23,824 nucleotides of DNA from a virus: the IMG/VR virus record IMGVR_UViG_3300031393_000006, positions 1-23,824 of that record. One strand, given 5' to 3'. This document shows positions 1 through 23,824 of the stretch, in pieces. Both the position numbers and the translations under genes were made by a program. Within the stretch, counting starts at the first letter, position 1. The number at the start of each line of letters is the position of its first letter. The notes beneath the pieces were generated by a model. The model was not told the origin of the DNA. It made no database searches and saw only the letters and a program-made list of their open reading frames with translations.

Positions 1-1090
1 GGTTTAGAGCCGAAACTTTACGTGTCCAAGAAGCTGCTGCAGAGAAAGTAGCGTTAGTAGCAAACGCGTCCTCAGCACCAGCCCAAGCATAACCCTCAGG
101 GTGCCACACGTAACCCCAACGGTACCAGATCTCAGTCTTACCACCACCAAGGTAGACAGACGCATCACGATCTATCTCAACCGGAGTTGGGATTTCAATC
201 GGAGCGAAAGAAACAGAGTTGGGTTTCAGAAGGAAAGTACACTTAGTAGACCGTGCGTTTAGATCGCTAGCACTAACCGATGCCATCTGAGTGAAACGAG
301 TAGGCAGTAGGCGGAATTTACCATCAAAGATAGTAGTGAATTCCAGTTCACCGTCCGTTACTCGGTCCTCATCAACGAGGTTAGCAGCGCGGATCTGTGC
401 AAGGGTCTCCGGAGAGGTAACCATGTACATGTAGTCCGGTTCGTAGTCCTTAAACGCCATACCAATTGCTTGGAACAGACGCTCACCACGAGCAGCACCA
501 ACACCCGATGCATCAAACAGCTTACGCTGATCAGGTGCACCGGAAGCAGCAGCACCAAAGACACCAGAAGCAGCGTTGAGATCAACAAAGAAACCAGTTG
601 CTGTGGCATCAGGGTCAGTATCAAAGTCTACAAGACCACCCTCACCTGCATCGCTAGCATCACCTAGGGCGACCTCTGAACGAGCAACACCTTGTAGGAC
701 GTTGTAGAAGGCTTTGCCTTCGTCTTCCATACGTGTCTGTGCGAAGTCACGAGCAATCTTTTTAAGCCCGTCTTCACCAGAGATCACTTGTTGCACGTTA
801 ACTTGCTCAGCACCGTGCGAACGAGCGGTCTTGATGTATTTTGCAAGGTTAGTGCTGATGTTTGTCATTGTACCTTCAGTGTCGTCAGTTGTTGACATGA
901 CGTTGACTTCCGGCTCAAGAGGCTTGTACCAACGGAACTGGCCAATATAGCTTTCTGAGTTACCGTCAATACCCTCACGAGTACCTACGACACCAGTCGT
1001 GTGGATGTTTTTGGAAGTAGTGTACGCTTCGTGTGAGTACTGACGTAGTACTTCCTCAATGACCTGAAAGTTAGCATTAGAGATAGGCAT
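1..1090 (-). CDS. Major capsid protein (3' end outside the window)
   Basis: The frame is open from ATG 1090 to the window edge (363 codons), so the C-terminus is missing. The start MPISNANFQVIEE has an AAAGGA ribosome-binding site about 7 nt upstream. The protein is a soluble acidic alpha/beta protein with a helical N-terminal arm, a long central domain and a C-terminal segment rich in Trp, Tyr and Gly (for example EIWYRWGYVWHPEGYAW), as in HK97-fold coat proteins. It directly follows the coiled-coil scaffold gene, the usual scaffold-coat order, and belongs to the head operon with portal and MuF-polymerase. The assignment rests on position, length and general character rather than on a diagnostic motif. 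A head decoration or other abundant virion protein is less likely. Confidence 0.82.
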   Translation of the reverse strand, partial: MPISNANFQVIEEVLRQYSHEAYTTSKNIHTTGVVGTREGIDGNSESYIGQFRWYKPLEPEVNVMSTTDDTEGTMTNISTNLAKYIKTARSHGAEQVNVQQVISGEDGLKKIARDFAQTRMEDEGKAFYNVLQGVARSEVALGDASDAGEGGLVDFDTDPDATATGFFVDLNAASGVFGAAASGAPDQRKLFDASGVGAARGERLFQAIGMAFKDYEPDYMYMVTSPETLAQIRAANLVDEDRVTDGELEFTTIFDGKFRLLPTRFTQMASVSASDLNARSTKCTFLLKPNSVSFAPIEIPTPVEIDRDASVYLGGGKTEIWYRWGYVWHPEGYAWAGAEDAFATNATFSAAASWTRKVSALN

Positions 1091-1111: not shown

Positions 1112-1876
1112 TCATCGGACGCCCAATTTCTTTCGTGTTTGGGCTATCATCTGATCTTGTGGAACATCGAAAATCGATTTAGGTTTGTCTTGAGGCACAC
1201 TTGTCGAAGTCATCGACGTAGTAGAACTCCCAGTATTTTGCTTCGGTTTGAAAAGAAACCTGTTTTCTTCATCTTCTAGATAACTAGAAACAGTAGACTC
1301 GATGTCTTTACCATCGCGAGAGACCCAACGACCACTGTCGTCTTGAATAAGAGAATCAACAATGTCCCGACGTGCAGATGCGCGAGCACGATCGTTACGG
1401 AATTCTGCAGTACTTAGAGAGGCGTCAACGGCGTTATCACGACGAAGACTCACGTTTTCACCCCTTAGAGTTTCTAGTTCAGAATTCATATCAGAGATCT
1501 GCGCTTCTAGCGCTTCTTTGTCTTTACCTGCTGATTTCATAGCTTCAATCTCAGCTTCCCTCTCACGCTTTTTAGTGTCTTTGAGTTCTGCTTGAGTATC
1601 TTTGAGTTTCTTATCAAGAGCATCCATCTTTTCTTTGAATTGCTGTTTCAGAACCTCAAGCTCTAAATCTTCTTTCTTATTCTTGTCTTTTTCTTTGTTC
1701 TTATCATCAGAGTCATCAACGTCAGCGTCCGCATCAGTTGTTTCCTCTTTGATATCATCTTCAGTGTTTCCGTTTTCGTCATCTTCGTTTGAAGCATTAT
1801 CTTTTTCGGATTGAGCATCATCAATTTTCTTACGAAGCTCTTCCATTTGTGCTTTGAGTTCTTCTTTAGTAGCCAT
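1112..1876 (-). CDS. Capsid scaffolding protein, coiled coil
   Basis: Encodes 254 aa from ATG 1876 (MATKEELKAQMEEL), with GTAGGAG 8 nt upstream. An in-frame GTG at 1897 would add seven residues, but that extension overlaps the ribosome-binding site and is unlikely. Residues 1-25 are helical. About 25-65 is a very acidic low-complexity stretch of Asp, Glu, Asn and Lys, and about 70-150 is a long charged heptad-like coiled coil. The C-terminus is basic (IAQTRKKLGVR), the usual coat-binding end of phage scaffolds. It lies immediately upstream of the coat gene. Scaffolds guide coat assembly into the procapsid and are then expelled or cleaved. The sequence is fast-evolving, so the call rests on composition and position. 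Confidence 0.75.
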   Translation of the reverse strand: MATKEELKAQMEELRKKIDDAQSEKDNASNEDDENGNTEDDIKEETTDADADVDDSDDKNKEKDKNKKEDLELEVLKQQFKEKMDALDKKLKDTQAELKDTKKREREAEIEAMKSAGKDKEALEAQISDMNSELETLRGENVSLRRDNAVDASLSTAEFRNDRARASARRDIVDSLIQDDSGRWVSRDGKDIESTVSSYLEDEENRFLFKPKQNTGSSTTSMTSTSVPQDKPKSIFDVPQDQMIAQTRKKLGVR

Positions 1877-1937
1877 TAAAATTTCTCCTACAGTCACTGA
1901 CTGTGTTAGCCGTTGAGTTACAAACTCTCAGGTCGAA

Positions 1938-2931
1938 TTAGGGTCCTACACCATAAAAATCTTTATTAGGTACGTCCGTCAATATGTCTTCCCTAGTTAT
2001 AGGGTTAGGCGGATCAATAAGACCAAGTTGTTTTGCTTCAGCGAGAAGTTCATCGTAGGTAGCCTTAGGCAACCCCTCTTTTCGCATTTCAGCAAGAGTT
2101 CTTCGGATAGTATCCCCCTCTAGGGCATCCGCATAGATTTCACGGAGAGCAGCTTTAGCGTTATCTGCTTCCGCTAGATTAGTAAAGAAAGCGTCGTGGA
2201 TTGTACCAGTAGACTTGCCCTCTTTGCGGCCCCACAAGTGGAACTTGCGAACAATAACCGCGTCGTTAGAATGGTTTCCATTCACACCCAGACCAATAGA
2301 AGCATCTTGGACAGATCCTTTTCCAAGGAGCTTGCCGTCTTCAGCTTGTGCTGCATAGATGTTCATAACCTTTCGTCCTGTTATGGGATCCCTGAATTCA
2401 ATTCTCTCTTGAAGTTCCGGTCGGTATCTTTGTGTCATAACCTTACCGTCAAAGGTCACCCACGGGATGTCTACCTTTTTAGTTTCAGTTGTAAAGCGTT
2501 TAGATACTCTTTTCCAGAAATTAATGAATTCATTTGTAACAGGTGCTCTGTCAGACAGCTTCTCTGACATTAGCGCAGAAAGTTCTTTAAAGTCATTTGG
2601 GCCAATCAGGCCTCCACGAGCACTAGTCACCTTAGCAACAAAGTCTGCCGTGTCGCTGTGAATTTCTTCTGCTTCTTTTAGAAGCCTTAGACCAATAGAC
2701 TGGTCCTTGTTCACCATATTGATAAGCTCACCCCTAAAGGCTTTCAGATTAGCTGAAGTAAGTTCTGCACCAATCCTATCTGCTTGTTTGATCTGTGAAT
2801 CAATTATCCTAAGCTGACCGCTTAGCTCTGATTTAGTAATTGTAGTAAAGCCTCTTTCATCTAGAAGTTTAGATAGCTTTGCTGCAACGTTAGCGGTCTT
2901 AGTTGCCTCACCGGCACCGTAGAAACTTACC
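1938..2931 (-). CDS. MuF-RNA polymerase, exon 2 (C-terminal polymerase: motifs B and C)
   Basis: This is the 3' exon of the gene that begins at 6693. The frame is open without a stop from 2930 to the TAA at 1938. The in-frame ATG at 2717 is internal and lacks the polymerase motifs upstream of it, so it should not be taken as a start. Spliced to exon 1, the junction codon becomes ATG and restores motif B as KAQNM-VSFYGAGEATK. Lys1158 and Tyr1166 have the same 8-residue spacing as T7 RNA polymerase Lys631 and Tyr639. Motif C is TIHDAFFTN with the catalytic Asp at about residue 1408 of the joined protein, matching T7 IHDSFG (Asp812). About 84 residues follow motif C, near the roughly 70 in T7. 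Numbering assumes the GTG start at 6693. Confidence 0.9.
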
Positions 2932-3208
2932 CAATTTGTTCAATGGGGTGGTTATTCCCATCCGCATAACAATAACTTAGTTATGCTGCTACATGTTTCC
3001 ATGCAGATCAGACTATATCATCAACCTTTCTGTAGTAGGTTGCCCTGCGCTTCCACTCAACACTTGAGTGTACTCCTTACGGATAGTCGTTGAACGTTCC
3101 TTATACAATACTATAGTATTGTATGAGGCTTCGCTGCTGATTGTCTTCACCGTTACGTGGTCAGAGTTTCCAGCAATTCACAGGGTTTAAAGAACACAAT
3201 ATAAGTTT
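2932..3208 (-). ncRNA. Group I self-splicing intron, 277 nt, no ORF
   Basis: The minus strand carries the group I core. P7 is GACUAU (3088-3083) with AUAGUC (3016-3011). P4 is UUGCUG (3176-3171) with CAGCAG (3139-3134). The R-like GUUCAACGACUAUC and S-like GAUAUAGUC boxes resemble T4-type introns. P1 pairs exon AGAACAU (3215-3209) with guide GUGUUCU (3197-3191), seven pairs ending in the required U.G at the 5' splice site. The 3' site follows G2932. The first bases of exon 2 (GUAAGUUU, from 2930) pair over 8 bp with AAACUUAU in the P1 loop, a P10. A perfect 22-nt palindrome (3103-3124) fits an extended P6. Removal joins the two polymerase frames exactly. There is no homing endonuclease ORF inside. 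Confidence 0.92.
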
Positions 3209-6200
3209 ATGTTCTGCGCTTTAGCACCTTTAGCAAGATCCTCCCAAGTCAAGTTCGCGTCACGGAGCGCCTTAATCTTGTTGAAACGAGGATCATTAAT
3301 GGTGTCAATAGCCACTAGGTCATAGAGTCTATTCTTTTGTGTCGTAGGAACAACGTTAGAGGCTTCCGAGACCATACGGTCCCCAGTAGAAAGCCCGATA
3401 ATTTGTGCACCAGAGGACGACGCATCGTTCTCTATCATAAGACGTGTTTTAAATGATTTGAGTTTAGCAGCATCTCTCATGTCGCCGCCAACGTGGTCAT
3501 ATACACGAGCATACTCTAAAGCCATACGAGACATCTTAGGTACCTCGGGTCCTTCTAGACCCTTGATTAGGGGGTGTTCTAGGAACTCCCTCATACGCCT
3601 GTCTCTCTGGGTTTCTTGCTGCATTAGCCTTCCTAGAGAAAGGATGTCTTCCCGCTTTCTCTGAAAGATAGCCTTACGACCACTAAGGGTAAGAGCCTCT
3701 GTACCGGGTCCAATCATAGCTCCAATCTGGGTCTCTAGCTCATTTACTGCATTGAGAGTCATTGGAGTAGCAATAGCATCATCTAAGAAGGGTCGAACCA
3801 TCTCACCACCAGTAGGTGTCAAGTATCCACGGTGGTAGACACGGCCACGGCTATCCATGTATGTATCCGACCAAAAGGGTTTACCACGATTTGTCTGGTA
3901 CCTGCCTGCTGTCATGAAACCAAAGCCTTGGTCACCACGTTTGATGATCTCGTGTCTAAACTCATTAAGGCCATCGTAGTAATCTGTGTTACCGCGAGGG
4001 TCACGGAACCTAACAACATCATCCATAAAGTTAAAGAACACCGGATCTGTTTGGTATTGTGTACCAGAGGCTTGGTTTAGAGCATTAGCAAAGTCTGCAT
4101 CAACCTGATTTGCGTCAAAGCTAGCGTACTTACGTCTAGATATGATAGGTCTGCCGGTAACATTACCACGAGCATCAAAGGCTTCCTTCTTACCAGCGCG
4201 GACAAACTGCCTATCTCTATCAAAAGAAATACCCATACGTCTGCCAACAACAACTCGTCTTTCAGCCTTCTGTAGCTCAATAAGACGTTTGTCGATTACC
4301 TCAACCTCTCTAGAAACTGTGTCTCCCCAGAAGCCTGTGGCACGACCTGTCTCTACATCTAGAACACCTCTGCGGGTCTTACCACGGTAGTTGAGACGGA
4401 TCATCTTTCTGTCCTTCATGTAATCAAGGACTCTGGAACCGTCTTTGTGGTAGTCTTGTAAAGTGTGTTTCTGGAATGGGTTAACATCTTCTAGATCTTT
4501 TGCCATTTGTTTACCAATAGCAATAGCAAGACCGTCGTAGTCTGTCATTTGTCCAGAACCAACAAGCTTTACTGCTTTAGAAAGAGAGTTGAGTACTTTG
4601 TCATCCATTACCTTTGATGTAGGATTCTTCTTAGATGTAAGAAATTCAAAGTCAATAATTCTACGAATACGTTCATCGATACCACGTTTAAATCTAACAG
4701 CTAATTCGTCTGTGGGTGTTCTATACCATTTTAGGTACTTAGCAAATGAGGTTTTCTCCCAACGCTTCTTAAGTGTTTCGGGCTTCTTGACTTTTCCTAG
4801 AAGACCTTGGAAATAAGACCTTGGTGGGCTTTTCCCTCTGAAGTAAAGCTCTTTCGAGAGTTTAGCTCCAACACCAGTACGGAAGGAATCAATAGACCTC
4901 TGATCTGCAAGAAGTCTATCCTGTAGCTGATCAATCTTGTAGTAATCACCCATAAGCTGGACTTGAGGTCCTCCTTCTTTAGCACCAAAGAAGCGAGAAA
5001 ATAAGTTGTATTTATCTCTCTGTCTAGTATCAAGAAGACGGGCAGTGTTCTGAACAGCAAATCTATTTTCTGCTCTAAGTACATTAGCAAAGTTGTCCCA
5101 AGGCTGCTTGTCTTTCCTAGCTCGCTCTATTACAACCCTAAGGTTTTCAATAGCAACTGTTTGCTGATTTGTTGACACTTTCTCTTCTAAGGAGTTAATC
5201 ACAGATCCAATGAAGTCTTTATCTTCAGATTGGAGGACTTTAGAGTTCCTCATGAAGTCAAGACGTTCTTGTAGAAGTGTGTAGTTAGGATCATAAAGGT
5301 TGTTGTTTCTTGCCTCACCTGTAAGGGGGTCGAAGCTATTATTACTTTCATCGAAGATGTTAGCTGTACGGCGACGAGCGGTTTGTTTACCTTGCAGTGT
5401 TGTACCTTTAAAGTCCGTTAGAGAGTAAGTTTTACCGAGATCATCAGCATCATTGACAAATAGATCTACAACCTCTCGCTTATACTTAGCATTCCTGACG
5501 AGGGTGCTAGGGCGCGCCACAGCGATCTGTGTTACGACATCTTCACCTATCGACTGCTTAGGGCGGAAAATGTTAGTAAGATTAGCAGCACGACGTCTCA
5601 AAGCAGTAATAGAGAGTGCGCTACCTTGAGGTGTCACAAAGTTATCGGCTTTGACTTCTCCTTTTCGGAAAAGATCTGCCTTTTCTTGACTACCAAGGAT
5701 CTTTGTTTGGACATCATAAGCCTGACGTTTAAGCCACTGACCAAAGGTTTCTTTCTCTGGGGGAGATCCTGTTAAAGAACTTCCTTTCGTGGTTTCAAGA
5801 GCAGCTAAATTGATCCTATCAGACTCTTTCTTTAGCAGTTCGGCTTTGCTCTCAAATATAGGAACAAGGGTAGAACGGCAGTTAAAGTGTAGTGGAGGGG
5901 CAAAACGCCTATCACCTACATCATAGATCTTACCATCATGATAACGACAAATGCTAGAAGTACGATTATCAAGCATTGCTTGGAACATGTAGCCTTTGAT
6001 GGCTTCCTTGTTTTCCCCTACCGCACTAAACAGAGCATCGCGCTGCGTAGCTGTGATACCTGTACGAGAAAGAGTACCCGCTTGGTGGGCTGTCATCTTG
6101 GTTGTTTTGCTGACGTCACTAATAATTTGATTTTGAGACTTATTATCTCTACGACCACGCTTCAACCAAGTTTGTACCCTAGTTGTCTCACCACGAGCAA

Positions 6201-6693
6201 TGTTCTCTACGTTATTTTTGATAGCAGCATCACCGTTGATACTAGCGCCAGTAATATCTGCTAGATCAGCCTTGTTCTTAGGTCTACGAACGGAGAACCA
6301 TCCTTTAGTGTGTTTTGAGATACTATCAGTGTAGAAATCTACCTCAGCACCATGTAGCTCTGTCAAATTTGTCTTCTGCCAAGAAAAGAGCTCTGTAGCA
6401 AAACGGTTTTGCTCTCGTCTGAATTTGTTGGCTATTTTCTTCTTTTGATCAATAGTAGTTGTTGCTAAGTCTTCCTTAACAAGCTTAACTAGAGACTCAC
6501 GATGACGATTTACAATACGACTATTACCAATCTGAATGCTCTCTTCGAACTTTCTAACGTCAGTAAGGTGATCAATCACCTCGTCGTTCATTTTCTGTGT
6601 AACATCCATTCTAGCAATCTCCTGATTGGTAAGTTTGGTGGAATGAACCGCACAGTCCTTGCAAAAGACCGTCGCCCCCTTGGAACATGTCAC
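3209..6693 (-). CDS. MuF-RNA polymerase, exon 1 (head-morphogenesis domain plus polymerase N-terminal part)
   Basis: Exon 1 gives 1161 codons plus AU of a split Met codon. Joined to exon 2 it makes about 1492 aa. Residues about 150-283 form a Mu gpF-type domain ending in LDNRTSSICRYHDGK and PPLHFNCRS. From about residue 600 the protein is a T7-like single-subunit RNA polymerase: DSRGRVYHRGYLTPTGG at 947-963 matches T7 DWRGRVY, and motif A is ENDASSSGAQIIG with catalytic Asp1090, followed by a segment that also aligns with T7. Residues 285-600 are unassigned. Unspliced, translation would stop after ILYCVL-type intron codons (NINLYCVL) before motif B, giving a dead enzyme. The start is uncertain. 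GTG 6693 would include a CKDC cysteine motif but lacks spacing for a ribosome-binding site. ATG 6609 has AGGAG 9 nt upstream. Confidence 0.9.
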
Positions 6694-6779: not shown

Positions 6780-6855
6780 TGGCCGACCCGGAAGGACTCG
6801 AACCCTCACTTGAAGATTAGAAGTCAACTGTTCTATCCTGTTGAACTACGGATCA
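6780..6855 (-). tRNA. tRNA-Arg (UCU)
   Basis: A 76-nt cloverleaf with encoded CCA (6782-6780). The acceptor UGAUCCG pairs with CGGGUCG using two G.U pairs. The D stem is GUUC/GAAC, the T stem GAGGG/CCUUC and the T loop UUCGAGU. The anticodon loop CUUCUAA gives UCU, which reads AGA. The anticodon stem GUUGA/UCUUC contains two U-U mismatches, so it is weaker than usual and function is less certain. It is the last tRNA of the array before the MuF-polymerase gene. Confidence 0.75.
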
Positions 6856-6907
6856 GTGTATAGTGTTTATAGTTTATGTGTGTCGTATCCTAGCTTAATC
6901 TTATGTA

Positions 6908-6983
6908 TGGTGGTCCTGCCGGGACTCGAACCCAGATATTACGATTATAAGTTGTACGCTCTAACCAGTTGAGCTACAAGACA
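6908..6983 (-). tRNA. tRNA-Ile (UAU)
   Basis: 76 nt with encoded CCA. The D stem is GCUC/GAGC, the T arm CUGGG-UUCGAGU-CCCGG, and the anticodon loop CUUAUAA gives UAU for AUA codons. The acceptor UGUCUUG/CAGGACC pairs except at position 1-72 (U-C). The anticodon stem has one A-C mismatch. AUA is rare in GC-rich bacteria, where a direct UAU anticodon is uncommon, which fits compensation for phage codon use. Confidence 0.8.
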
Positions 6984-6996
6984 TTGATTATTAAAT

Positions 6997-7083
6997 TGGT
7001 ACGGGTAGAGGGAGTCGAACCCCCACGTCTTTTAAAACACTAGGACCTAAACCTAGCGCGGCTACCTATTTCGCCATACCCGC
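6997..7083 (-). tRNA. tRNA-Leu (UAG)
   Basis: 87 nt class II tRNA with encoded CCA. The acceptor GCGGGUA pairs with UACCCGU. The anticodon stem CUAGG/CCUAG is perfect, and the loop UUUAGGU gives UAG for CUA codons. The long variable arm between the anticodon and T arms is as expected for leucine. The T loop is UUCGACU. This is the best-formed tRNA of the array. CUA codons are frequent in the neighbouring phage genes. Confidence 0.9.
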
Positions 7084-7084
7084 A

Positions 7085-7161
7085 TGGTCCCCCACCCCGG
7101 ACTCGAACCGGGAGAACCGGCAGTTTAAGTGCCGTACGGTTACCAATTACGTCAGTGGGGA
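7085..7161 (-). tRNA. tRNA with UAA anticodon (Leu) on a class I scaffold
   Basis: 77 nt with encoded CCA. The acceptor UCCCCAC/GUGGGGG, anticodon stem CGGCA/UGCCG and T stem CCCGG/CCGGG are all well paired. The anticodon loop CUUAAAC gives UAA, reading UUA (Leu). The variable loop is only GUUCU, although bacterial leucine tRNAs normally have a long variable arm. The gene looks functional, but what charges it cannot be told from sequence. It lies 1 nt from tRNA-Leu(UAG), so the two must be processed from one transcript. Confidence 0.85.
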
Positions 7162-7179
7162 ATGGTACCGTGTAATTAG

Positions 7180-7254
7180 TGGTGGAAAGGGGAAGAATCG
7201 AACTTCCTACGCGCAGGGCTTCAACCTACCGCTCTACCTCTGAGCTAATCGGGT
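7180..7254 (-). tRNA. tRNA-Phe (GAA)-like gene with unpaired acceptor stem
   Basis: The D stem GCUC/GAGC, anticodon arm GUAGG-UUGAAGC-CCUGC (anticodon GAA) and T arm GGAAG-UUCGAUU-CUUCC are all good, and CCA is encoded. The seven bases before the D arm (ACCCGAU) do not pair with the seven after the T arm (CCUUUCC). The acceptor stem is therefore missing. It is either a decayed tRNA or a recombinant of two tRNA halves. Confidence 0.55.
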
Positions 7255-7266
7255 AAATATAAATAA

Positions 7267-7320
7267 TGGCAGCTTAGGTAGGACTCGAACATACATGTGT
7301 TACCAGTCAGCCACTAAGCT
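7267..7320 (-). other. 54-nt tRNA-like element lacking an anticodon arm
   Basis: A perfect 7-bp acceptor (AGCUUAG/CUAAGCU) is followed by discriminator G and encoded CCA. It encloses a D-arm-like hairpin (GUG-CAC around a loop with GG) and a T arm with the UUCGAGU loop and one stem mismatch. Only 19 nt separate the acceptor from the T stem, so the anticodon arm is absent. Most simply it is a deletion derivative of a tRNA. A tRNA-like processing or replication signal is also possible. It lies 6 nt downstream of the 48-aa membrane protein gene. Confidence 0.5.
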
Positions 7321-7326
7321 ATTAGT

Positions 7327-7473
7327 CTATCCAGCGATGAGAGCAAGAAAGATCACAAAAGCTATTGCCCCGCCACCTACAAGGAGGCCAAGTGATTTAG
7401 TCTTAGACCAAGCTTTCACTTTATCTTTTGCTTCGATGACTTTTTCCTTTGCTGTATCAATGATGTCTTTCAT
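7327..7473 (-). CDS. Small membrane protein, 48 aa, within the tRNA array
   Basis: Starts at ATG 7473 with AGGAG 8 nt upstream. A longer reading to 7557 would run through a tRNA gene and is rejected. Residues 1-28 are a charged amphipathic helix (MKDIIDTAKEKVIEAKDKVK). Residues 30-47 are one hydrophobic span (LGLLVGGGAIAFVIFLALIAG), ending at the C-terminus as in tail-anchored proteins. It stands alone between tRNA genes downstream of the portal gene. It could be a small inner-membrane effector or a virion membrane-active peptide. A holin-like gene exists separately at 10099-10377, so a primary holin role is not required. Function unknown. Confidence 0.8.
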   Translation of the reverse strand: MKDIIDTAKEKVIEAKDKVKAWSKTKSLGLLVGGGAIAFVIFLALIAG

Positions 7474-7496
7474 TGTATATCTCCTGATATCGAATA

Positions 7497-7571
7497 TGGT
7501 TGCGCAGAGGGGAGTTGAACCCCTAGTACAGGCCTTATGAGGGCCGCGTGTTACCATTACACCACCGCGCG
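7497..7571 (-). tRNA. tRNA-Met-type (CAU)
   Basis: 75 nt with encoded CCA. The anticodon stem CGGCC/GGCCU pairs at four of five positions, and the loop CUCAUAA gives CAU. The T arm is AGGGG-UUCAACU-CCCCU and the D stem GUGU/ACAC. The acceptor pairs at positions 2-7, while 1-72 is a C-A mismatch, a feature of bacterial initiator tRNA. The three G-C pairs of an initiator anticodon stem (GGG/CCC at 29-31) are not present, so elongator Met or an Ile tRNA with lysidine at C34 remain possible. Confidence 0.82.
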
Positions 7572-7636: not shown

Positions 7637-9250
7637 TTATTCTTGTACTTGTCCACCGTAGTCATTCATAGATCGAGCCATTTGGGCTACAGGGTCAGCC
7701 CTAATCTCGCTTACACCCTTTTCATCGTTGTAGTCGCCCGGAATGAAATCATTCTCCTTAGCGATATTAATAAAGACAGAACGAGGAATAAGGCCCATCT
7801 GGTACCACTCTGTAACAAGACGCATACCATCTTCACCCTGAGCCTGAGGACTAAAGTCCTTAGACATAGCAAAGTCAATATCTTCTGCTGTTAGTTCAAG
7901 ATCGTAGCGCCAGTTAATCATAAACGCAATAACAGACCGCATGGTATTAGAAATCTTCATATTAAGAGTACCAAGAGTGGCTGTCTGTGATGAGTTACGA
8001 AGCTCTAGTGCAATACCCGACTCTGTTGTCTCTGGGGCAAGCATACGAATACCCAGCTTAGCTAGTTCCTCTAGAGTCTGTTCAATAGAGTCCTTCATAT
8101 CGCTAAGAGCAGCGGTAGGAGGAGTGAGAACATCCGCTGTAACACCGCTAGGAAGGAACATCATAGTACCTAAACCTTGACTAGCAATCTTCTGCTGTTC
8201 ACCCTCTTCAATGTCTCCTATAAAGATAGGTGTGTAGGTAGCTGCGCCATACATCAAGTGGTTACGCCTAGAGATCTTATTGTAAAGGCCAATTTCTCGG
8301 TTAACAAAGGTTAATAGGATAGGCTCTTCAATATGAGTTTCACCGTCGAGAGGCCAAGCAGGGATACGTGCAAGACGCTTACCAAACTGTTGTGGTTTAA
8401 AGGTTTCATAAAGTTCATAACCAGTCTCTTCAATCCCTTCTTTTCCGGGTTTAAGACTGTTGTCAGTAATTTCTCCACCTTGAGCAGTGGCTGTAGAATT
8501 ATCTTCTTTACGATACTCATCAACAACTAGAAAACCTTCCCTATCAATGTAATGATCTCTTACGGTACTGACTAAGGTAGGATGCCAAGGGTTGTCATTT
8601 TTGTATACCGGAGTATAAAAACGAGTAATAAACCGTGTCATAGCCGGTAGGCCTGTAACGGGATGATATCCCTCAATAACGTTGATCACATTCTCTGCTG
8701 AAATAAGAGAAGGATAAGGCTTTACATAGTTTGCCTGCTTTGGAGTCATGTTCTCAGTTTCTTCTGGGGATACAGAAGGAACATCAACATAAATCCATGA
8801 ATATGAAGTTTGCATCTCTTCCCAGACTGCGTCATCAAGAAAGTGAAACAGAGACTGATTATCAGAAGTAAATCTGTGTCTAATCCAGTCAATCATTTCC
8901 ATCCTTAGAGTCTCTGGAATTTCATCAGGAAGTTCAAGATTAGATTCTTTTCTTAATAGAGCACCAGTCATTGAACGAGCGTACTGAGCAGTAACCCCCG
9001 GTAGTTCAGCTTCATCTTTATAGAAATTGTATTGATTTTGATCCATAGTAGGCGAGAAAGGAAGCAAGATGTTCTTCTTATTGCCATCATGATCAATGTC
9101 ATGAACAATCTCATCGTGGGCCTTTACAGCCTCTTGGCCTCGGACCACAGCTCGGCACTTCGCCCAAGTCGATCTAATAGAATCGTATTGATAGGACGGA
9201 GTACCCACACTCGACTTGTTTACAGAGGTCGAGAGAGTAATTTTGGCCAT
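7637..9250 (-). CDS. Portal protein (DUF4055-like)
   Basis: Encodes 537 aa from ATG 9250, with AAAGGAGG 7 nt upstream. Portal proteins form the dodecameric ring at the capsid vertex through which DNA enters and leaves. The protein has the portal layout of an acidic alpha/beta N-terminal part, a central region around EEPILLTFVNREIGLYNKIS, and a C-terminal long-helix segment (MKDSIEQTLEELAKLGIRML then SSQTATLGTLNMKISNTMRS) like that of DUF4055 portals. It is the first gene after the triple-promoter leader and precedes MuF, scaffold and coat, the classic portal-MuF-scaffold-coat order. No terminase is present in the window. Residues near the C-terminus (MARSMNDYGGQVQE) are hydrophilic. The family name is from memory, but the portal role is well supported by position. 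Confidence 0.85.
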   Translation of the reverse strand: MAKITLSTSVNKSSVGTPSYQYDSIRSTWAKCRAVVRGQEAVKAHDEIVHDIDHDGNKKNILLPFSPTMDQNQYNFYKDEAELPGVTAQYARSMTGALLRKESNLELPDEIPETLRMEMIDWIRHRFTSDNQSLFHFLDDAVWEEMQTSYSWIYVDVPSVSPEETENMTPKQANYVKPYPSLISAENVINVIEGYHPVTGLPAMTRFITRFYTPVYKNDNPWHPTLVSTVRDHYIDREGFLVVDEYRKEDNSTATAQGGEITDNSLKPGKEGIEETGYELYETFKPQQFGKRLARIPAWPLDGETHIEEPILLTFVNREIGLYNKISRRNHLMYGAATYTPIFIGDIEEGEQQKIASQGLGTMMFLPSGVTADVLTPPTAALSDMKDSIEQTLEELAKLGIRMLAPETTESGIALELRNSSQTATLGTLNMKISNTMRSVIAFMINWRYDLELTAEDIDFAMSKDFSPQAQGEDGMRLVTEWYQMGLIPRSVFINIAKENDFIPGDYNDEKGVSEIRADPVAQMARSMNDYGGQVQE

Positions 9251-9506: not shown

Positions 9507-9532
9507 CCCTCTCTTTAACGTCACCTATTTAT
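9507..9532 (-). promoter_or_regulatory. SP6-like phage promoter, variant a
   Basis: The minus strand reads ATAAATAGGTGACGTTAAAG followed by AGAGGGG. The core AGGTGAC is identical to the SP6 promoter (ATTTAGGTGACACTATAGAAG), and the spacing to the initiating G matches. A near-identical copy is at 17365-17390. The predicted start is the G at about 9513. The downstream RNA begins GAGAGGGG. Confidence 0.78.
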
Positions 9533-17364: not shown

Positions 17365-17390
17365 CCCTCTCTTTAACGTCACCTAATTAT
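17365..17390 (-). promoter_or_regulatory. SP6-like phage promoter, variant a, tail operon
   Basis: The minus strand reads ATAATTAGGTGACGTTAAAG followed by AGAGGGGG, differing from the site at 9507-9532 by two bases over the shared core. The predicted start is about 17371, giving a leader of about 47 nt before the NlpC-like gene. Two imperfect inverted-repeat arms flank it (17345-17362 and 17403-17420), followed by T14 on the plus strand. Confidence 0.78.
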
Positions 17391-17551
17391 GTGATAAAAA
17401 ACAAACCCTTAGTTACTCCCTTTTTTTTTTTTTTCACTTTGAAGCTTAAGACTTGCTCCAAGACTTGTGAGTAAGTCAATTGGGCTTCCTTTAAAGAGCC
17501 GCTAAATGGACGGCCCCGGACAGTGTGTCCTGATCTTGGTTTGTCGTGTTG
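17391..17551 (-). other. Non-coding junction between fibre locus and tail operon
   Basis: It contains a 14-nt T run (17421-17434 on +), two copies of AAGTCTT on the minus strand, and a small hairpin GGACA-CAC-TGTCC near 17519-17531. No ORF is supported. G+C rises sharply to the right of about 17.5 kb, so this looks like the left boundary of an acquired fibre block. Confidence 0.6.
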
Positions 17552-17702
17552 TCAGGTGACTACGACGTTGTAATCGACGCCATCAGTGAACAGCGATGAA
17601 GCAGACCCAAATGTGTATACATCTATCCCGTCACTGGTTTCAGAAAACGTCAATTCTGTCCCGACGCCGCGCTGCGATTTGGGCGGCTACTGTTTCAGTC
17701 AT
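17552..17702 (-). pseudogene. Broken small gene at the end of the fibre locus
   Basis: ATG 17702 overlaps the stop of the preceding gene (ATGACTGA) and opens MTETVAAQIAARRRDRIDVF, then stops at 17640. A different frame is open from 17686 to 17552 and reads GTELTFSETSDGIDVYTFGS and onward to DGVDYNVVVT, which looks like real beta-rich coding sequence but has no good start. Joining the two needs a +1 shift near 17670. A frameshifted remnant is most likely. A programmed frameshift is possible but lacks a recognisable slippery site. Confidence 0.45.
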
Positions 17703-17958
17703 CTGCCCGCCTTAACGTTTCAATTTCAGCAAGCAAGGCTTTCGCGTCGGACACGTCATTCAGAAACGACCGCTCGCAGTGGTCGGGGTTGCGCTGCCAG
17801 AAGAATATGGCGTCAATAAACCGCTCACCCCGGCGGCCCTGCCGGTGCATCCGGGCGCTAACGCTTTCGTTCGGCCCCGTCTCTGTCAAGTCAACCGCCG
17901 TCATAACGTTGCCAAGCTGCGACAGGGCCGAACCGATCATGGATATGCGCTGCATCAT
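17695..17958 (-). CDS. Hypothetical accessory protein of the fibre locus, 87 aa
   Basis: Overlaps the upstream DUF4376-like gene by 4 nt (ATGA), so it is translationally coupled. MMQRISMIGSALSQLGNVMTA begins an alpha-helical, charged protein (RMHRQGRRGERFIDAIFFWQRN, AEIETLRRADD) without signal peptide or membrane span. I do not recognise the family. Composition is GC-rich like its neighbours. Position next to a DUF4376-type protein suggests a tail-fibre assembly or accessory role. Confidence 0.7.
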   Translation of the reverse strand: MMQRISMIGSALSQLGNVMTAVDLTETGPNESVSARMHRQGRRGERFIDAIFFWQRNPDHCERSFLNDVSDAKALLAEIETLRRADD

Positions 17959-18359
17959 GGCCAGTACTTATCATTGGTGAAGTCTGCCGGAATCGGGTCC
18001 ATGGCCTTGATTGCGTGGGCCGCAAAGATGTGCGCGCTCTCGTTCGCTGCCGCCGCATTGCCAAAGGCAAAGCACGTCTGAGCGTCCATCGTGGTCAAGC
18101 TGTTGTCGGCGGCAATCCACGTGAAGTCTGCATTGCCTCTATGCCACCGCAGGTCGCCGACCTCTGCTCCACCACCTATGGCAAATCCGGCAAGGGTTGC
18201 CGCGCCCGTGATCCGCGCGAGGCTTGCAGTGTCGCAGTCATACCGTTTGCCAGCAAAGGCAAAAGTTGCGGTCATACGGCGGTCGCGTTCTGCGTTTACT
18301 GCGGCGCGGGCTTCGGCAAGCAGGGTGGCTGGGTCTGGTCTGCCAATCTTGATAATCAT
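17955..18359 (-). CDS. DUF4376-like protein (tail fibre accessory)
   Basis: 134 aa. The N-terminal helix (ATLLAEARAAVNAERDRRM) is followed by a domain matching DUF4376: FAFAGKRYDCDTASLARITG, then small-residue helices (GAATLAGFAIGGGAEVG), LRWHRGNADFTWIAADN, and a C-terminal helix (AHIFAAHAIKAMDPIP). DUF4376 proteins are typically encoded beside phage tail fibres. It overlaps both neighbouring genes by 4 nt. Function is unproven: a folding chaperone or a small fibre component is likely. Confidence 0.72.
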   Translation of the reverse strand: MIIKIGRPDPATLLAEARAAVNAERDRRMTATFAFAGKRYDCDTASLARITGAATLAGFAIGGGAEVGDLRWHRGNADFTWIAADNSLTTMDAQTCFAFGNAAAANESAHIFAAHAIKAMDPIPADFTNDKYWP

Positions 18360-18574
18360 GCGCCCACTCCATCAGTCAAATCGGCTTCATCAACAGTCCA
18401 TTCGTTACGCCATTGGCGGTCTGTTGGAATGTCAGCCACGTCTACAATCTTGTACGCCTTTCCAGTCGGCACGTCTTTTGCGGCGATTTCCTCAATTGTC
18501 AGCCCGCAATCGGCAGGGATGATAACCGCCACGTTGCCTTCGTCGTTTTGGTAGATAATGCGTTTGTTTTGCAT
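18356..18574 (-). CDS. Hypothetical phage protein, 72 aa, fibre locus
   Basis: Starts at ATG 18574 with AAGGAGCG about 5 nt upstream. The sequence begins MQNKRIIYQNDEGNVAVIIP and contains KAYKIVDVADIPTDRQWRNE, a pattern seen in small proteins encoded with DUF4376 genes (a beta-rich domain with a Trp-containing loop). It is acidic and soluble. It overlaps the next gene by 4 nt. I assign no specific function. Confidence 0.7.
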   Translation of the reverse strand: MQNKRIIYQNDEGNVAVIIPADCGLTIEEIAAKDVPTGKAYKIVDVADIPTDRQWRNEWTVDEADLTDGVGA

Positions 18575-18585
18575 TGGGTCGCTCC

Positions 18586-20037
18586 TTACCTGAAAAACAT
18601 AACTTCTACTGACGGGAAGTCTTCTACGTTAGCACCTGCATTGACTGTCTTAATGCGACAAGCAGTAGTTGTTTTTGTTCCACCGTTCGTCCGACCAATT
18701 AACACGTCTTTAACTCCACCCGTATCCTCGCCAGAACCGGACATAGCGTAATTCGCATCCTGCATTGCTGTCGTAAAGTTTACAGTGTAATCACCCACGC
18801 CATTATCAGTAACGCTCGATACATTCCCGCCGCCGCGGATTGCCACTGTTCCGGTGCCGTTGAAATTTACCCACGCGCGGCAGGCATGCATCGGGGCTGT
18901 GCCGCCAGGATCAAGCGTTGCGCCTTTTACGCTTAAACTTTTGGTAATTTGGACATCACCGCCTGACGTTATTCTCATACGTTCCGTCGGGAATTCTTCG
19001 ATATCTGGTCTTGTTCCAAATGTTAAAGCCTGTTGATAACCCGATACGGATTCTTGGTCCCAGCCTATGTAGCATCCCGTTTCTTCAAATGAATTAGAAA
19101 TTCCGAAACCAATATATCCTTTGCCAAGAGTGTCACCACTGCTACCAGCACTGTTGATAAACTGAGCAACCATTGAATTGTTTACTTCTTCCACAACACG
19201 AAGTTTTTCAGGACTATTTGCAGAAGCCAGCCCTAAGTTAGCGCGCGCTGTCGTCGCGCTTCCCAGATCGCTTAAATTGTTGGATCGGTGGGCGTAGCGG
19301 TTGTCTGGCTGAACAGATGCCGTCCCAAGCGCCGTTCCCTGCCGGTAAGGTGTCCAGCCGCTTCCATCCTTTTTGGCGACGATAACCCATGCGCTATTTG
19401 CCTCATTGCGCACTTTCATGAGGTCGTTATTCGTATCGAACCAGAGCATGTGCGCAAATGTCGGGTTCGGCTCTGATGATCCGGCATTGTTCGTCGCAAT
19501 CGCGCTCAGAGCGGTGTTTGTTGTGAAGCCGGAGTCGTTGGTCAGAAGCGAGATGTTCGATCCAGACACTAGCTTGCCGTCGAGCGCACCCTGCAGCCCC
19601 GTGACGGTCGAGATGGCCTGCGTGTGTGCTGCTGGGGCATAGTCGCTGCTGTCAAAAGACTTAACCTGAGCTAAGTTAGTTACCTCACTGTCCATAAGAG
19701 CACCAGCGGATGTCACATTAGCTGTGTCTGTAACGTCTGCGGAAGCCTCGATGTTGTCCAACTTAGTCTTGTCACCATCTACAAAAGCACCCTCAGTAGG
19801 TGGCTGTTGCGCTGTATCTGCAAGACTTCCTTGCGCTGCAGTGGCGAAGTCTTCTGTGCTAGCCGTTGCTGCAGAACCCGCGTCTGAAATACTAGAAAGG
19901 GGCTGTGTACCTGTATGTGTTCCCCTATCTCTTAGTTGAGCGTCTGTTGCGTTGGCGGTTGCGTTGGAAGCAACGCCTTGAGTCTTGCTGATCCCGGCGT
20001 CGATATCTTCACCGGTATGGATACTGTTATATGGCAT
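18586..20037 (-). CDS. Tail fibre protein, 483 aa
   Basis: Starts at ATG 20037 with TAGGAGCC upstream. The N-terminal 150 residues are Ala/Thr/Ser/Asp-rich and low complexity (GVASNATANATDAQLRD, HTGTQPLSSISDAGSAATAS), typical of triple-stranded fibre shafts. The middle (QGALDGKLVSGSNISLLTND, NLSDLGSATTARANLGL) has repeat motifs common in phage fibres. The C-terminal 110 residues (ACRAWVNFNGTGTVAIRGGG, DYTVNFTTAMQDANYAMSG) are a fibre-end domain common in marine phages. It probably binds the cell surface. A maturation chaperone may be one of the small genes downstream. Confidence 0.85.
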   Translation of the reverse strand: MPYNSIHTGEDIDAGISKTQGVASNATANATDAQLRDRGTHTGTQPLSSISDAGSAATASTEDFATAAQGSLADTAQQPPTEGAFVDGDKTKLDNIEASADVTDTANVTSAGALMDSEVTNLAQVKSFDSSDYAPAAHTQAISTVTGLQGALDGKLVSGSNISLLTNDSGFTTNTALSAIATNNAGSSEPNPTFAHMLWFDTNNDLMKVRNEANSAWVIVAKKDGSGWTPYRQGTALGTASVQPDNRYAHRSNNLSDLGSATTARANLGLASANSPEKLRVVEEVNNSMVAQFINSAGSSGDTLGKGYIGFGISNSFEETGCYIGWDQESVSGYQQALTFGTRPDIEEFPTERMRITSGGDVQITKSLSVKGATLDPGGTAPMHACRAWVNFNGTGTVAIRGGGNVSSVTDNGVGDYTVNFTTAMQDANYAMSGSGEDTGGVKDVLIGRTNGGTKTTTACRIKTVNAGANVEDFPSVEVMFFR

Positions 20038-20048
20038 TGTTGTGGCTC

Positions 20049-20558
20049 CTACTCTGCAGCGGTAATAAATTCTTCTCCGCCTGATGTGATCAGTTGATCC
20101 TCATACGTTGGCGGAGAGGGTATGTACCCGTAAATAATTTCCGGCTCTGCCCGCGCGACAGTCATCTGAACCCCACTCTTGCCGCTGAGCTGTTGAACGG
20201 GAGGTTCAGCGTCAAAGTCTTCGGTGTTGAAATCCCCGACACGAATGCGAGTGACCGGAAAGCCCACGCTGAAGCCGTTAGGGGTCGGTCCGGAGGCCCG
20301 AACGATTTGCACTCGAAATGTCGCTGTGCTCGACCCGAGATCGCTCGTGCCTTCAAAGATCACCCGCACCTTACCGGCGACTCGATCTGTATATGAAATG
20401 ATCTCTTTGCCGAGAATCTGCGCACTTGGGTCATAGATCCTGACCTCCCATTCTGTGAGATCGAAAGGAGCCCCTAAAGCATCTACGGTCTCCGGTGGTC
20501 CAAAGAAATTAAGGTCGACGGCCACGTCACCGCCAGCGTTGTGTATAAGCGTAGTCAT
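20049..20558 (-). CDS. Fibre-locus protein, 169 aa, unknown
   Basis: Starts at ATG 20558 with GGGGGA 6 nt upstream. A TTG two codons earlier is a weaker alternative. The ATG overlaps the stop of a 45-aa ORF (ATGA). The N-terminal part is beta-rich (GDVAVDLNFFGPPETVDALG, LTEWEVRIYDPSAQ, GKVRVIFEGTSDL, ATFRVQIVRA), like a jelly-roll or Ig-like head domain. The C-terminus is acidic and flexible (AEPEIIYGYIPSPPTYEDQL). It could be a fibre-anchoring or baseplate-connector protein. Confidence 0.72.
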   Translation of the reverse strand: MTTLIHNAGGDVAVDLNFFGPPETVDALGAPFDLTEWEVRIYDPSAQILGKEIISYTDRVAGKVRVIFEGTSDLGSSTATFRVQIVRASGPTPNGFSVGFPVTRIRVGDFNTEDFDAEPPVQQLSGKSGVQMTVARAEPEIIYGYIPSPPTYEDQLITSGGEEFITAAE

Positions 20559-20692
20559 CGGCAATCCCCCTTCATTCTGTCGTCCGTATTAGCCATTATT
20601 TTACTCCTTTCATACAGGCCTCCACGGCAGAAGTGCAGGCCTCCAGACCAGCAGTTCAGATCCTTTTCTTGGTTATCATAAGGGTTAGCCAT
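20555..20692 (-). CDS. Small ORF, 45 aa, coupled to the next gene
   Basis: ATG 20692 has GAGGAATATAA upstream. It begins MANPYDNQEKDLNCWSGGLH and overlaps the next ATG by ATGA. An internal ATG at 20594 has its own AAAGGAG site and gives MANTDDRMKGDCR, so two MAN-starting reading options exist. The TGGAGGCCTG decamer occurs twice inside. Coding is plausible from the start signal and coupling, but there is no family evidence. Confidence 0.5.
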   Translation of the reverse strand: MANPYDNQEKDLNCWSGGLHFCRGGLYERSKIMANTDDRMKGDCR

Positions 20693-20726
20693 TTATATTC
20701 CTCAAATTTTCTAGGTGGGTTAGTCT

Positions 20727-20892
20727 TTAGTTAATAACCATTAGATAGGCAACCAAAGTGCCAGCACCGCCGCAGGCGTTCAGCCAGTTCAAACTGCCGT
20801 AGGTTAGGGCCTCGGCAGGACCAGACCCAAAGGCCATTGCAAAGTGGTTGCCGTCGGCGCGCAGGGCGTCTGGGCAAGGGATTGTTAGTCAT
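20727..20892 (-). pseudogene. Partial, start-disrupted copy of the 135-aa gene
   Basis: In frame with, and directly after, the stop of the 135-aa gene, the sequence reads LTIPCPDALRADGNHFAMAF, then GPAEALTYGSLNWLNACGG and stops after LMVIN. This matches the first half of the upstream protein (LTIACPEALRDDANQLAMVL, GPSDAETYVALNWQDAGG). The expected start ATGAGACTAACA is ATGACTAACA here, a 2-nt loss that puts the ATG out of frame. The C-terminal half is missing. It is a tandem duplication fragment, or a second gene using an unusual start. Confidence 0.6.
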
Positions 20893-21296
20893 ACATACGC
20901 CCCCACATCCACCTCAACCTCAACCTCAACCTCAACCTGCGTCAGCCCCATTGCGGCCAACGTTGCCAACGCATCGTCTCCGGCACAGGCGGTCAGTTTG
21001 TCAGGCGCTACCTCAACAGCCTCTAGCGAGAACACCAGCGCCGCTTGTGCGAGCCGTGCCGCATCCATGTCTATAATGTTGTCAGTGTCCCATGAGGGGC
21101 GCTGTAGGCCGCTCTGTGCTGTTGTGGTGAATGCGTCAGACACGATCAAGCTTGCGCAGGCGTAAAGGTTGCCCCCCGCGTCCTGCCAGTTCAGCGCCAC
21201 GTAGGTTTCTGCATCAGACGGACCGTAGCCCAGCACCATGGCTAGTTGGTTTGCATCATCCCGCAGCGCCTCGGGGCAAGCGATTGTTAGTCTCAT
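20889..21296 (-). CDS. Adhesin-associated protein, 135 aa
   Basis: ATG 21296 shares a base with the adhesin stop (TGATG) and has AGGAGG 7 nt upstream, so it is coupled. It begins MRLTIACPEALRDDANQLAM. It is an acidic, Ala-rich globular protein (GYGPSDAETYVALNWQDAGG, IIDMDAARLAQAALVFSL). The C-terminus is a VEVEVEVEV tract encoded by a tandem hexanucleotide (20911-20938). I do not recognise a named family. It may be a fibre accessory or tip component. The hexanucleotide could change protein length by two residues per unit without frameshift. Confidence 0.75.
   Translation of the reverse strand: MRLTIACPEALRDDANQLAMVLGYGPSDAETYVALNWQDAGGNLYACASLIVSDAFTTTAQSGLQRPSWDTDNIIDMDAARLAQAALVFSLEAVEVAPDKLTACAGDDALATLAAMGLTQVEVEVEVEVDVGAYV
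20911..20938 (-). repeat. Tandem hexanucleotide ACCTCA x4.7 (plus-strand unit)
   Basis: The unit occurs four full times plus four bases and encodes alternating Val-Glu near the C-terminus of the 135-aa protein. Slippage would keep frame. It sits 20 nt before the duplicated start-disrupted copy. Confidence 0.9.
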
Positions 21297-23536: not shown

Positions 23537-23557
23537 TTCTCGACCTTTCTATTAATA

Positions 23558-23797
23558 TTAAGTTAATAGAGCGAAGATACCAACAGCTGATGTATTTGCC
23601 GCATTAAACCTTGAGACATTTGCTGTAATAAGAGTACCGCTACCTACTTCTGCTTCAATGGTCTCTCCGGCACTGTCGAAAGAAACTACTCCACCTACAT
23701 TTACAAAGAAGCCTACACAGACATCCTCTGGAACGTAATCACCATCACCTGTAGCTCTCCACTTGGGGGCTAAGCCTGATACTTTTGTTGCTTGCAT
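23558..23797 (-). CDS. Hypothetical protein, 79 aa, ahead of the adhesin
   Basis: ATG 23797 has AAAAGGAAT about 10 nt upstream. It begins MQATKVSGLAPKWRATGDGD and continues beta-rich (CVGFFVNVGGVVSFDSAGET, GTLITANVSRFNAANTSAVG), without cysteine motif or membrane span. Similar small proteins precede tail adhesins in phages. It could be a small fibre-base or decoration protein. Composition is closer to the phage core genes than to the GC-rich adhesin. There is no named family. Confidence 0.7.
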   Translation of the reverse strand: MQATKVSGLAPKWRATGDGDYVPEDVCVGFFVNVGGVVSFDSAGETIEAEVGSGTLITANVSRFNAANTSAVGIFALLT

Positions 23798-23824
23798 TTT
23801 TATTAATTCCTTTTCTTTTTGTTT

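Follow-up and report, generated by a model that had tools for sequence, protein, structure and literature searches.

The stretch analysed here (the window) comprises 23,824 nucleotides of viral DNA, positions 1 to 23,824 of IMG/VR record IMGVR_UViG_3300031393_000006. Its minus strand carries a gene, referred to as MuF-RNAP, in which a MuF-type minor head protein domain is joined to a complete single-subunit RNA polymerase (RNAP). Judged from sequence comparisons, a widespread, mostly aquatic and so far unrecognised phage group fuses a capsid protein to a complete T7-type RNAP in this way. It is probable, in our view, that the fusion is a virion RNAP carried on a minor head protein, which is made late, packaged, and used at the next infection to read the early genes from promoter-like elements termed class 2 below. 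The architecture of the fusion, its conservation and fold, the presence of two polymerases, the gene order and the positions of the candidate elements are established by computation.

The MuF-RNAP gene runs from 6609 to 1938 on the minus strand and is interrupted by a group I intron within polymerase motif B:
3209..6609, minus strand: exon 1, with an ATG start that aligns with Met1 of the phage DSS3_VP1 protein and AGGAGA upstream
2932..3208, minus strand: group I intron (Rfam RF00028), 277 nucleotides, without an open reading frame (ORF), splitting motif B at AAC AT / G GTA
1938..2931, minus strand: exon 2, matching phrog_414 (RNA polymerase) with E 6e-11

The intron matched RF00028 with 101.6 bits (E 1e-25) over 2989-3218 and shows the hallmarks of group I, namely the conserved core, a U.G at the 5' splice site and a G at the intron end. 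The P1 pairing of AGAACAU with GUGUUCU, which closes with the expected U.G pair, puts the 5' splice site after AGAACAT, while the 3' splice site follows ...AACAAATTG, with the frame kept. When exons 1 and 2 are joined, the frame is open and splicing rebuilds K-A-Q-N-M-V-S-F-Y-G; the corresponding stretch of the intron-less DSS3_VP1 gene is KAANMVTFYG without any splicing. A splice artefact, a frame error or an assembly artefact as the source of the fusion is ruled out, since relatives encode the fusion without an intron. An earlier interpretation made from the letters of this DNA (the sequence-only reading) had proposed one spliced protein consisting of a MuF domain and a full single-subunit RNAP, and the open spliced frame, the RF00028 intron and the intron-less relative bear this out. 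Its start at GTG 6693, giving 1492 amino acids, should be revised: the start codon is probably ATG 6609, giving a predicted protein of 1464 amino acids, because this ATG is preceded by a Shine-Dalgarno sequence and coincides in the alignment with Met1 of the DSS3_VP1 protein.

The following motifs were located in the polymerase half, with conservation given over 134 aligned proteins:
3841..3855, minus strand: DSRGR motif (T7 DWRGR region), with D947, R949 and R951 each in 134/134
3403..3426, minus strand: RNAP motif A, DASSSGAQ, with the catalytic Asp1090 (134/134)
2910..3222, minus strand: RNAP motif B, K1158...M1162...Y1166-G-A-G, split by the intron, with K and Y in 134/134
2262..2276, minus strand: NHSND motif (T7 PNFVHSQD region), from the alignment of relatives and comparison with T7
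2181..2198, minus strand: RNAP motif C, HDAFFT, with the catalytic Asp1408 (132/132 of those with letters there)

The Asp of motif A, the Lys and Tyr of motif B and the Asp of motif C are thus invariant, and they are exactly the residues that had been assigned to these motifs beforehand. The T7 spacing in motif B (K631-M635-Y639) is matched by K1158, M1162 and Y1166. Exon 1 also matched phrog_414 (E 1e-12), and PF00940, which stayed below threshold in the window (18.7 of 22 bits), exceeded its curated cut-off in relatives (27-39 bits) within one ORF together with MuF. For the DSS3_VP1 ortholog, residues 264-1463 were modelled with AlphaFold2 from 57 sequences (mean predicted local confidence, pLDDT, 78; predicted template-modelling score, pTM, 0.69). 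The right-hand polymerase fold, named in advance as a point on which the reading would turn, was recovered: when the model was compared to the PDB with Foldseek, T7 RNA polymerase complexes came first (E 6.8e-18, probability 1.00, at about 14% sequence identity), followed by mitochondrial RNAPs. N4-type virion RNAPs in BFVD matched more weakly (about 1e-11). Profile comparison with hhalign gave E 5e-9 and probability 96 for T7 RNAP; for the domain of the N4 virion RNAP (vRNAP, gp50) it aligned only 62 columns around motif B (E 0.048, probability 1%), and an unrelated window protein used as control gave E 0.61. Median omega (NG86, 21 pairs) was 0.07 for MuF, 0.06 for the linker and 0.08 for RNAP, and both halves are under equal purifying selection. 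Taken together, sequence and model indicate that the RNAP half has kept its fold and active site intact.

A tblastn search of 50,697 phage records with the window protein returned four records covering at least 80% of it, these being DSS3_VP1 (two records), DSS3_PM1 and EBPR siphovirus 1. In the roseophages DSS3_VP1 and DSS3_PM1 the fusion is 61% identical to the window protein, intron-less and one uninterrupted reading frame, and it is annotated just as "head morphogenesis" or "minor head protein-like"; in EBPR siphovirus 1 the identity is 30%. Profile scanning of IMG/VR yielded at least 526 relatives (147 with a second query), in which the fusion is a single uninterrupted ORF in dozens of contigs, and the relatives form two clades about 31% identical to each other. 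The MuF-polymerase architecture that the sequence-only reading had proposed to look for in other phages therefore exists in three named phages and in this large environmental set. The window is linked to the Naomviridae both by MuF-RNAP (61% to DSS3_VP1 over 99%) and by the major capsid protein (MCP) gene (about 73% DNA identity). The DNA of DSS3_VP1 is substituted with deoxyuridine (dU) (PMC12697855); DSS3_PM1 likewise has dU-DNA.

The MuF half lies in a head module:
5866..6141, minus strand: MuF / SPP1 gp7 minor head domain (PF04233, E 3.9e-11; TIGR01641 above cut-off in relatives)
7637..9250, minus strand: portal protein gene (phrog_145, E 2e-43)
6780..7571, minus strand: tRNA cluster (Arg, Ile, Leu, Leu, Met; ARAGORN), between portal and MuF-RNAP
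1112..1897, minus strand: probable scaffold gene (phrog_206, E 0.005), whose position matches DSS3_VP1 gp107
2..1090, minus strand: major head protein gene (phrog_247, E 4e-23), cut by the window end

PF04233 scored 44.1 bits in exon 1 against a curated cut-off of 29.6, phrog_241 matched the MuF part with E 2e-45, and TIGR01641 (SPP1 gp7) scored 57-67 bits in relatives against a cut-off of 39.65. A model of the N-terminal 620 residues had pLDDT 81 and pTM 0.53. The gene lies between portal and scaffold, as had been noticed before, and the order portal, tRNA(s), MuF-RNAP, scaffold/hypothetical, MCP is common to the window and DSS3_VP1.

A second, ordinary T7-like RNAP is encoded away from the head module, besides the fusion, in all 15 of the large records (62-81 kb) from both clades; it is gp080 in DSS3_VP1. 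As the window is a fragment without the replication module, the tests for two polymerases and for class 2 rest on these large relatives. By profile comparison (hhalign E 0.003, 17% identity), this free RNAP is not a recent duplicate of the fusion.

Two classes of promoter-like element were recognised. Class 1 has the consensus ATAGGKKRCGTTAAAG, often with a G-run after it, and we take it to resemble the SP6 promoter. With at most 3 mismatches allowed, DSS3_VP1 has 19 matches (shuffled sequences, 2.4), of which 17 lie on the coding strand, among them three in front of the portal gene. In this phage the stretch from the class-2 elements to the free RNAP gene holds no class-1 element save one coding-strand copy inside an ORF. 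The copies in the window are:
9513..9528, minus strand: class-1 element ATAGGTGACGTTAAAG, 0 mismatches, upstream of the portal / MuF-RNAP operon
9659 (2 mismatches) and 9302 (4 mismatches): degenerate class-1 copies in front of the same operon
17371..17386, minus strand: class-1 element TTAGGTGACGTTAAAG, 1 mismatch

Class 1 varies by lineage, being ACCCCGTTAAATTAACCCT in clade 2 and AAAAATACTGCCG in G002 (G003, G010 and G002 records, L251-L262). Because class 1 varies between lineages while class 2 stays similar, the sequences suggest that the free RNAP co-evolves fast with its promoter.

The class-2 element, AAAAAGTGAGAAAAnnnnnGCATCTATAATGA, lies where the presumed early region begins. When 2.9 million IMG/VR contigs were scanned, the pattern occurred in 79 stretches, every one of which (79/79) encodes DSS3_VP1-like proteins, so that the clade-1 element was found in this virus group alone. 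In the 36 stretches that include the free RNAP gene, 69/69 class-2 elements are upstream of it on the same strand, and none is downstream or on the opposite strand. Counting both clades, class-2 elements precede the free RNAP gene in 15/15 large genomes, and a related element, (T/C)GCG(C/G)(A/G)AAA...GGTATCTTATATGA, does so in 13/13 genomes of the second clade. In 11 stretches the clade-2 element occurred 26 times in sense and once in antisense, with about 4 per strand in shuffles at that tolerance; a scan of all viral contigs with the 15-base clade-2 pattern gave many probable chance matches and was excluded from the statistics. Pelagibacter phage Kolga, whose free RNAP is related and whose head morphogenesis protein carries no RNAP, has neither form. 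Of 91 distinct clade-1 sequences, 57 show an inverted repeat of 5 bp or longer directly after the element, as compared to 2.7 in shuffled sequences; its arms differ (GATAC, GATATA, GATAAA, GAAGA, GAACGA) yet pairing is kept. A 5'-terminal RNA hairpin may be the simpler reading of this repeat than an N4-like hairpin promoter, because the hairpin begins at the expected transcript start and GGGG..CCCC also occurs after several class-1 sites.

From these observations we infer packaging, delivery or injection, and which polymerase reads which element. Late in infection, the free T7-like polymerase would transcribe the MuF-RNAP gene from class-1 promoters, and the N-terminal MuF domain of the product would anchor it in the procapsid near the portal. 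At infection MuF-RNAP might enter with the DNA or remain at the entry channel, and it would transcribe the early region from class-2 promoters, with the hairpin starting at the presumed +1. This region would include the free polymerase gene, whose product could then read the class-1 promoters of the middle and late genes. A polymerase encoded in a head operon behind late-type promoters would be useful mainly if carried to the next cell; and, as the free RNAP gene lies behind class 2 in DNA largely devoid of class-1 elements, class 2 has to be read by something already there when the DNA enters, the candidates being packaged MuF-RNAP and host RNAP. The sequence-only reading, which saw here a capsid-associated and possibly injected transcription machine, is supported by conservation across deep clades, equal selection, the intact fold and active site, the late operon and the second RNAP behind the early element. 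One might go further and propose an independently assembled virion RNAP, anchored in the head near the portal, whose reading of hairpin promoters mechanically couples entry to first transcription independently of host RNAP, possibly as an adaptation to dU-DNA; this extended version is tentative, and we would put it somewhat short of an even chance.

Three points weigh against a virion RNAP that reads class 2. The clade-1 class-2 elements carry a perfect TATAAT, so that host RNAP could read them. The model of the N-terminal (MuF) part had no significant structural match in the PDB, and the place of the MuF half in the head therefore rests on sequence families. Injection of MuF proteins is also not proven for every phage.

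The first of these points favours the strongest alternative, in which the fusion is packaged but host RNAP reads class 2, the virion polymerase either pulling the genome in, much as T7 uses transcription to internalise its genome, or transcribing early sites that have escaped recognition. Simple reading by host sigma-70 is unlikely, as class-2 elements have no -35 box at 16-18 bp and clade 2 has dropped TATAAT (CTTATATGA) while retaining the remaining class-2 architecture. Moreover, the clade-1 element is conserved over a stretch longer than 25 bp that takes in a TGAGAAAA box 5' of GCATCTATAAT, and it was found in this virus group alone. The long conservation, the missing -35 box, clade-2 elements devoid of TATAAT and the precedent of Thermus phage P23-45 (see below) favour MuF-RNAP over host RNAP as the class-2 reader, and we regard the host enzyme in this role as rather unlikely.

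Proteolysis at head maturation is common in phages, and the stretches between MuF and RNAP were modelled with low confidence; cleavage might thus leave MuF in the capsid and release the polymerase half as a free late polymerase in the cell. This is improbable, as all the large genomes tested have a free RNAP anyway, the linker is constrained as strongly as the domains, and no two-gene split of the fusion was found except at introns. The RNAP half might instead be a structural leftover, domesticated and inactive, and its great divergence from T7 RNAP (about 14% identity in the structure match) could speak for this; such a remnant is very improbable given strong purifying selection and the fact that the key residues of the catalytic and NTP-binding motifs do not vary among 134 sequences as far apart as 30% identity.

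If a virion RNAP is indeed carried by MuF, unrelated structural proteins (a tape measure, a giant ejection protein, a head protein) have repeatedly been turned into virion RNAPs, and it would be explained how naomviruses could begin transcription of dU-DNA without the host enzyme. The fusion also corrects an annotation common to hundreds of environmental phages. Since two classes of candidate promoters are now available, and a second polymerase as well, the cascade is testable in cultured phage. Our literature searches found no description of MuF-RNAP, but the original Naomviridae paper was outside their coverage and might contain a prior notice.

In relatives, too, the gene is interrupted by group I introns or elements resembling them, and HNH ORFs lie in some of these. 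In EBPR siphovirus 1, an 850-nucleotide intron-like element with an HNH ORF splits the gene 3 nucleotides from the window's insertion site, and its deletion gives a single protein of 1507 amino acids; Rfam did not detect this intron at gathering score, and it is assigned by splice logic only. Interruptions of this kind were located at:
L004 12021-12870; L168 9467-9733; L169 13187-13463; L170 7257-7542: introns or intron-like elements in MuF-RNAP genes
L140 14210-14416: intron or intron-like element near the NHSND motif

Since several of these interruptions are at motif B and one is near NHSND, the polymerase active site of MuF-RNAP genes appears to be an intron hotspot. In-frame inserts of unassigned type occur in L159-L162, L164 and L166 (about 182 amino acids, after motif B) and in L088 (131 amino acids, after MuF). 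An intein as the cause of the 1778-amino-acid ORFs (L162, L164, L166 and similar) is ruled out, the insert having no intein ends and being positioned after motif B.

DSS3_VP1 has a tRNA-Asn gene where the window has its five tRNA genes. From 17400 to 23824 the GC content of the window rises from about 42% to 53-60%, just past some 15 consecutive T residues near 17420-17436; the tail-fibre genes beyond the jump may be a horizontally acquired module or mark a chimeric contig joint, and the MuF-RNAP gene is located outside this part. Two contigs of one Gammaproteobacteria metagenome-assembled genome (L089 and L090) carry MuF-RNAP genes and are apparently binned phages; L089, from a 74,179-base contig, matched IMG/VR L091 at 100%.

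T7 and SP6 RNAPs share the fold and motifs A, B and C with the fusion and are the closest solved structures, although T7 RNAP has no virion domain and is made early as a free protein. The polyvalent proteins in which MuF is fused to effectors are likewise MuF-enzyme fusions among virion genes and are proposed to be injected; the sections of the source drawn on here name nucleases, RelA/SpoT, phosphoribosyltransferase (PRTase), kinases and others as MuF partners and do not mention an RNA polymerase (PMC5512222). N4 gp50 and its Schitoviridae counterparts resemble the fusion in being right-hand single-subunit RNAPs within a large protein encoded with late virion genes, in sharing a motif B that resembles YGSGARGIAGKL, and, for N4, in having a second phage RNAP for later genes. 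However, N4 gp50 has 3500 amino acids with a metallopeptidase and a C-terminal domain and no MuF, whereas the fusion has 1464 with MuF, and Pfam scans of the relatives found MuF and RNA_pol as the sole domains. The reading as an N4 vRNAP homolog is rejected, as overall profile similarity is not detectable and the comparison fails outside motif B. According to the same sections of Iyer et al. 2017 (PMC5512222), N4-like virion RNAPs are restricted to N4-like phages or prophages. In Thermus phage P23-45, gp96 is an RNAP fused to the tape measure protein and gp64 is a non-virion RNAP (PMC10770324). As here, a virion structural protein is fused to an RNAP, a second, non-virion RNAP is encoded in the first-read region, and there are two distinct promoter motifs; but the P23-45 enzymes belong to the two-barrel superfamily and are carried by a tail tape measure, whereas here a MuF head protein is the carrier and both polymerases are of the right-hand single-subunit type. 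P23-45 is an experimental precedent for a cascade of this kind.

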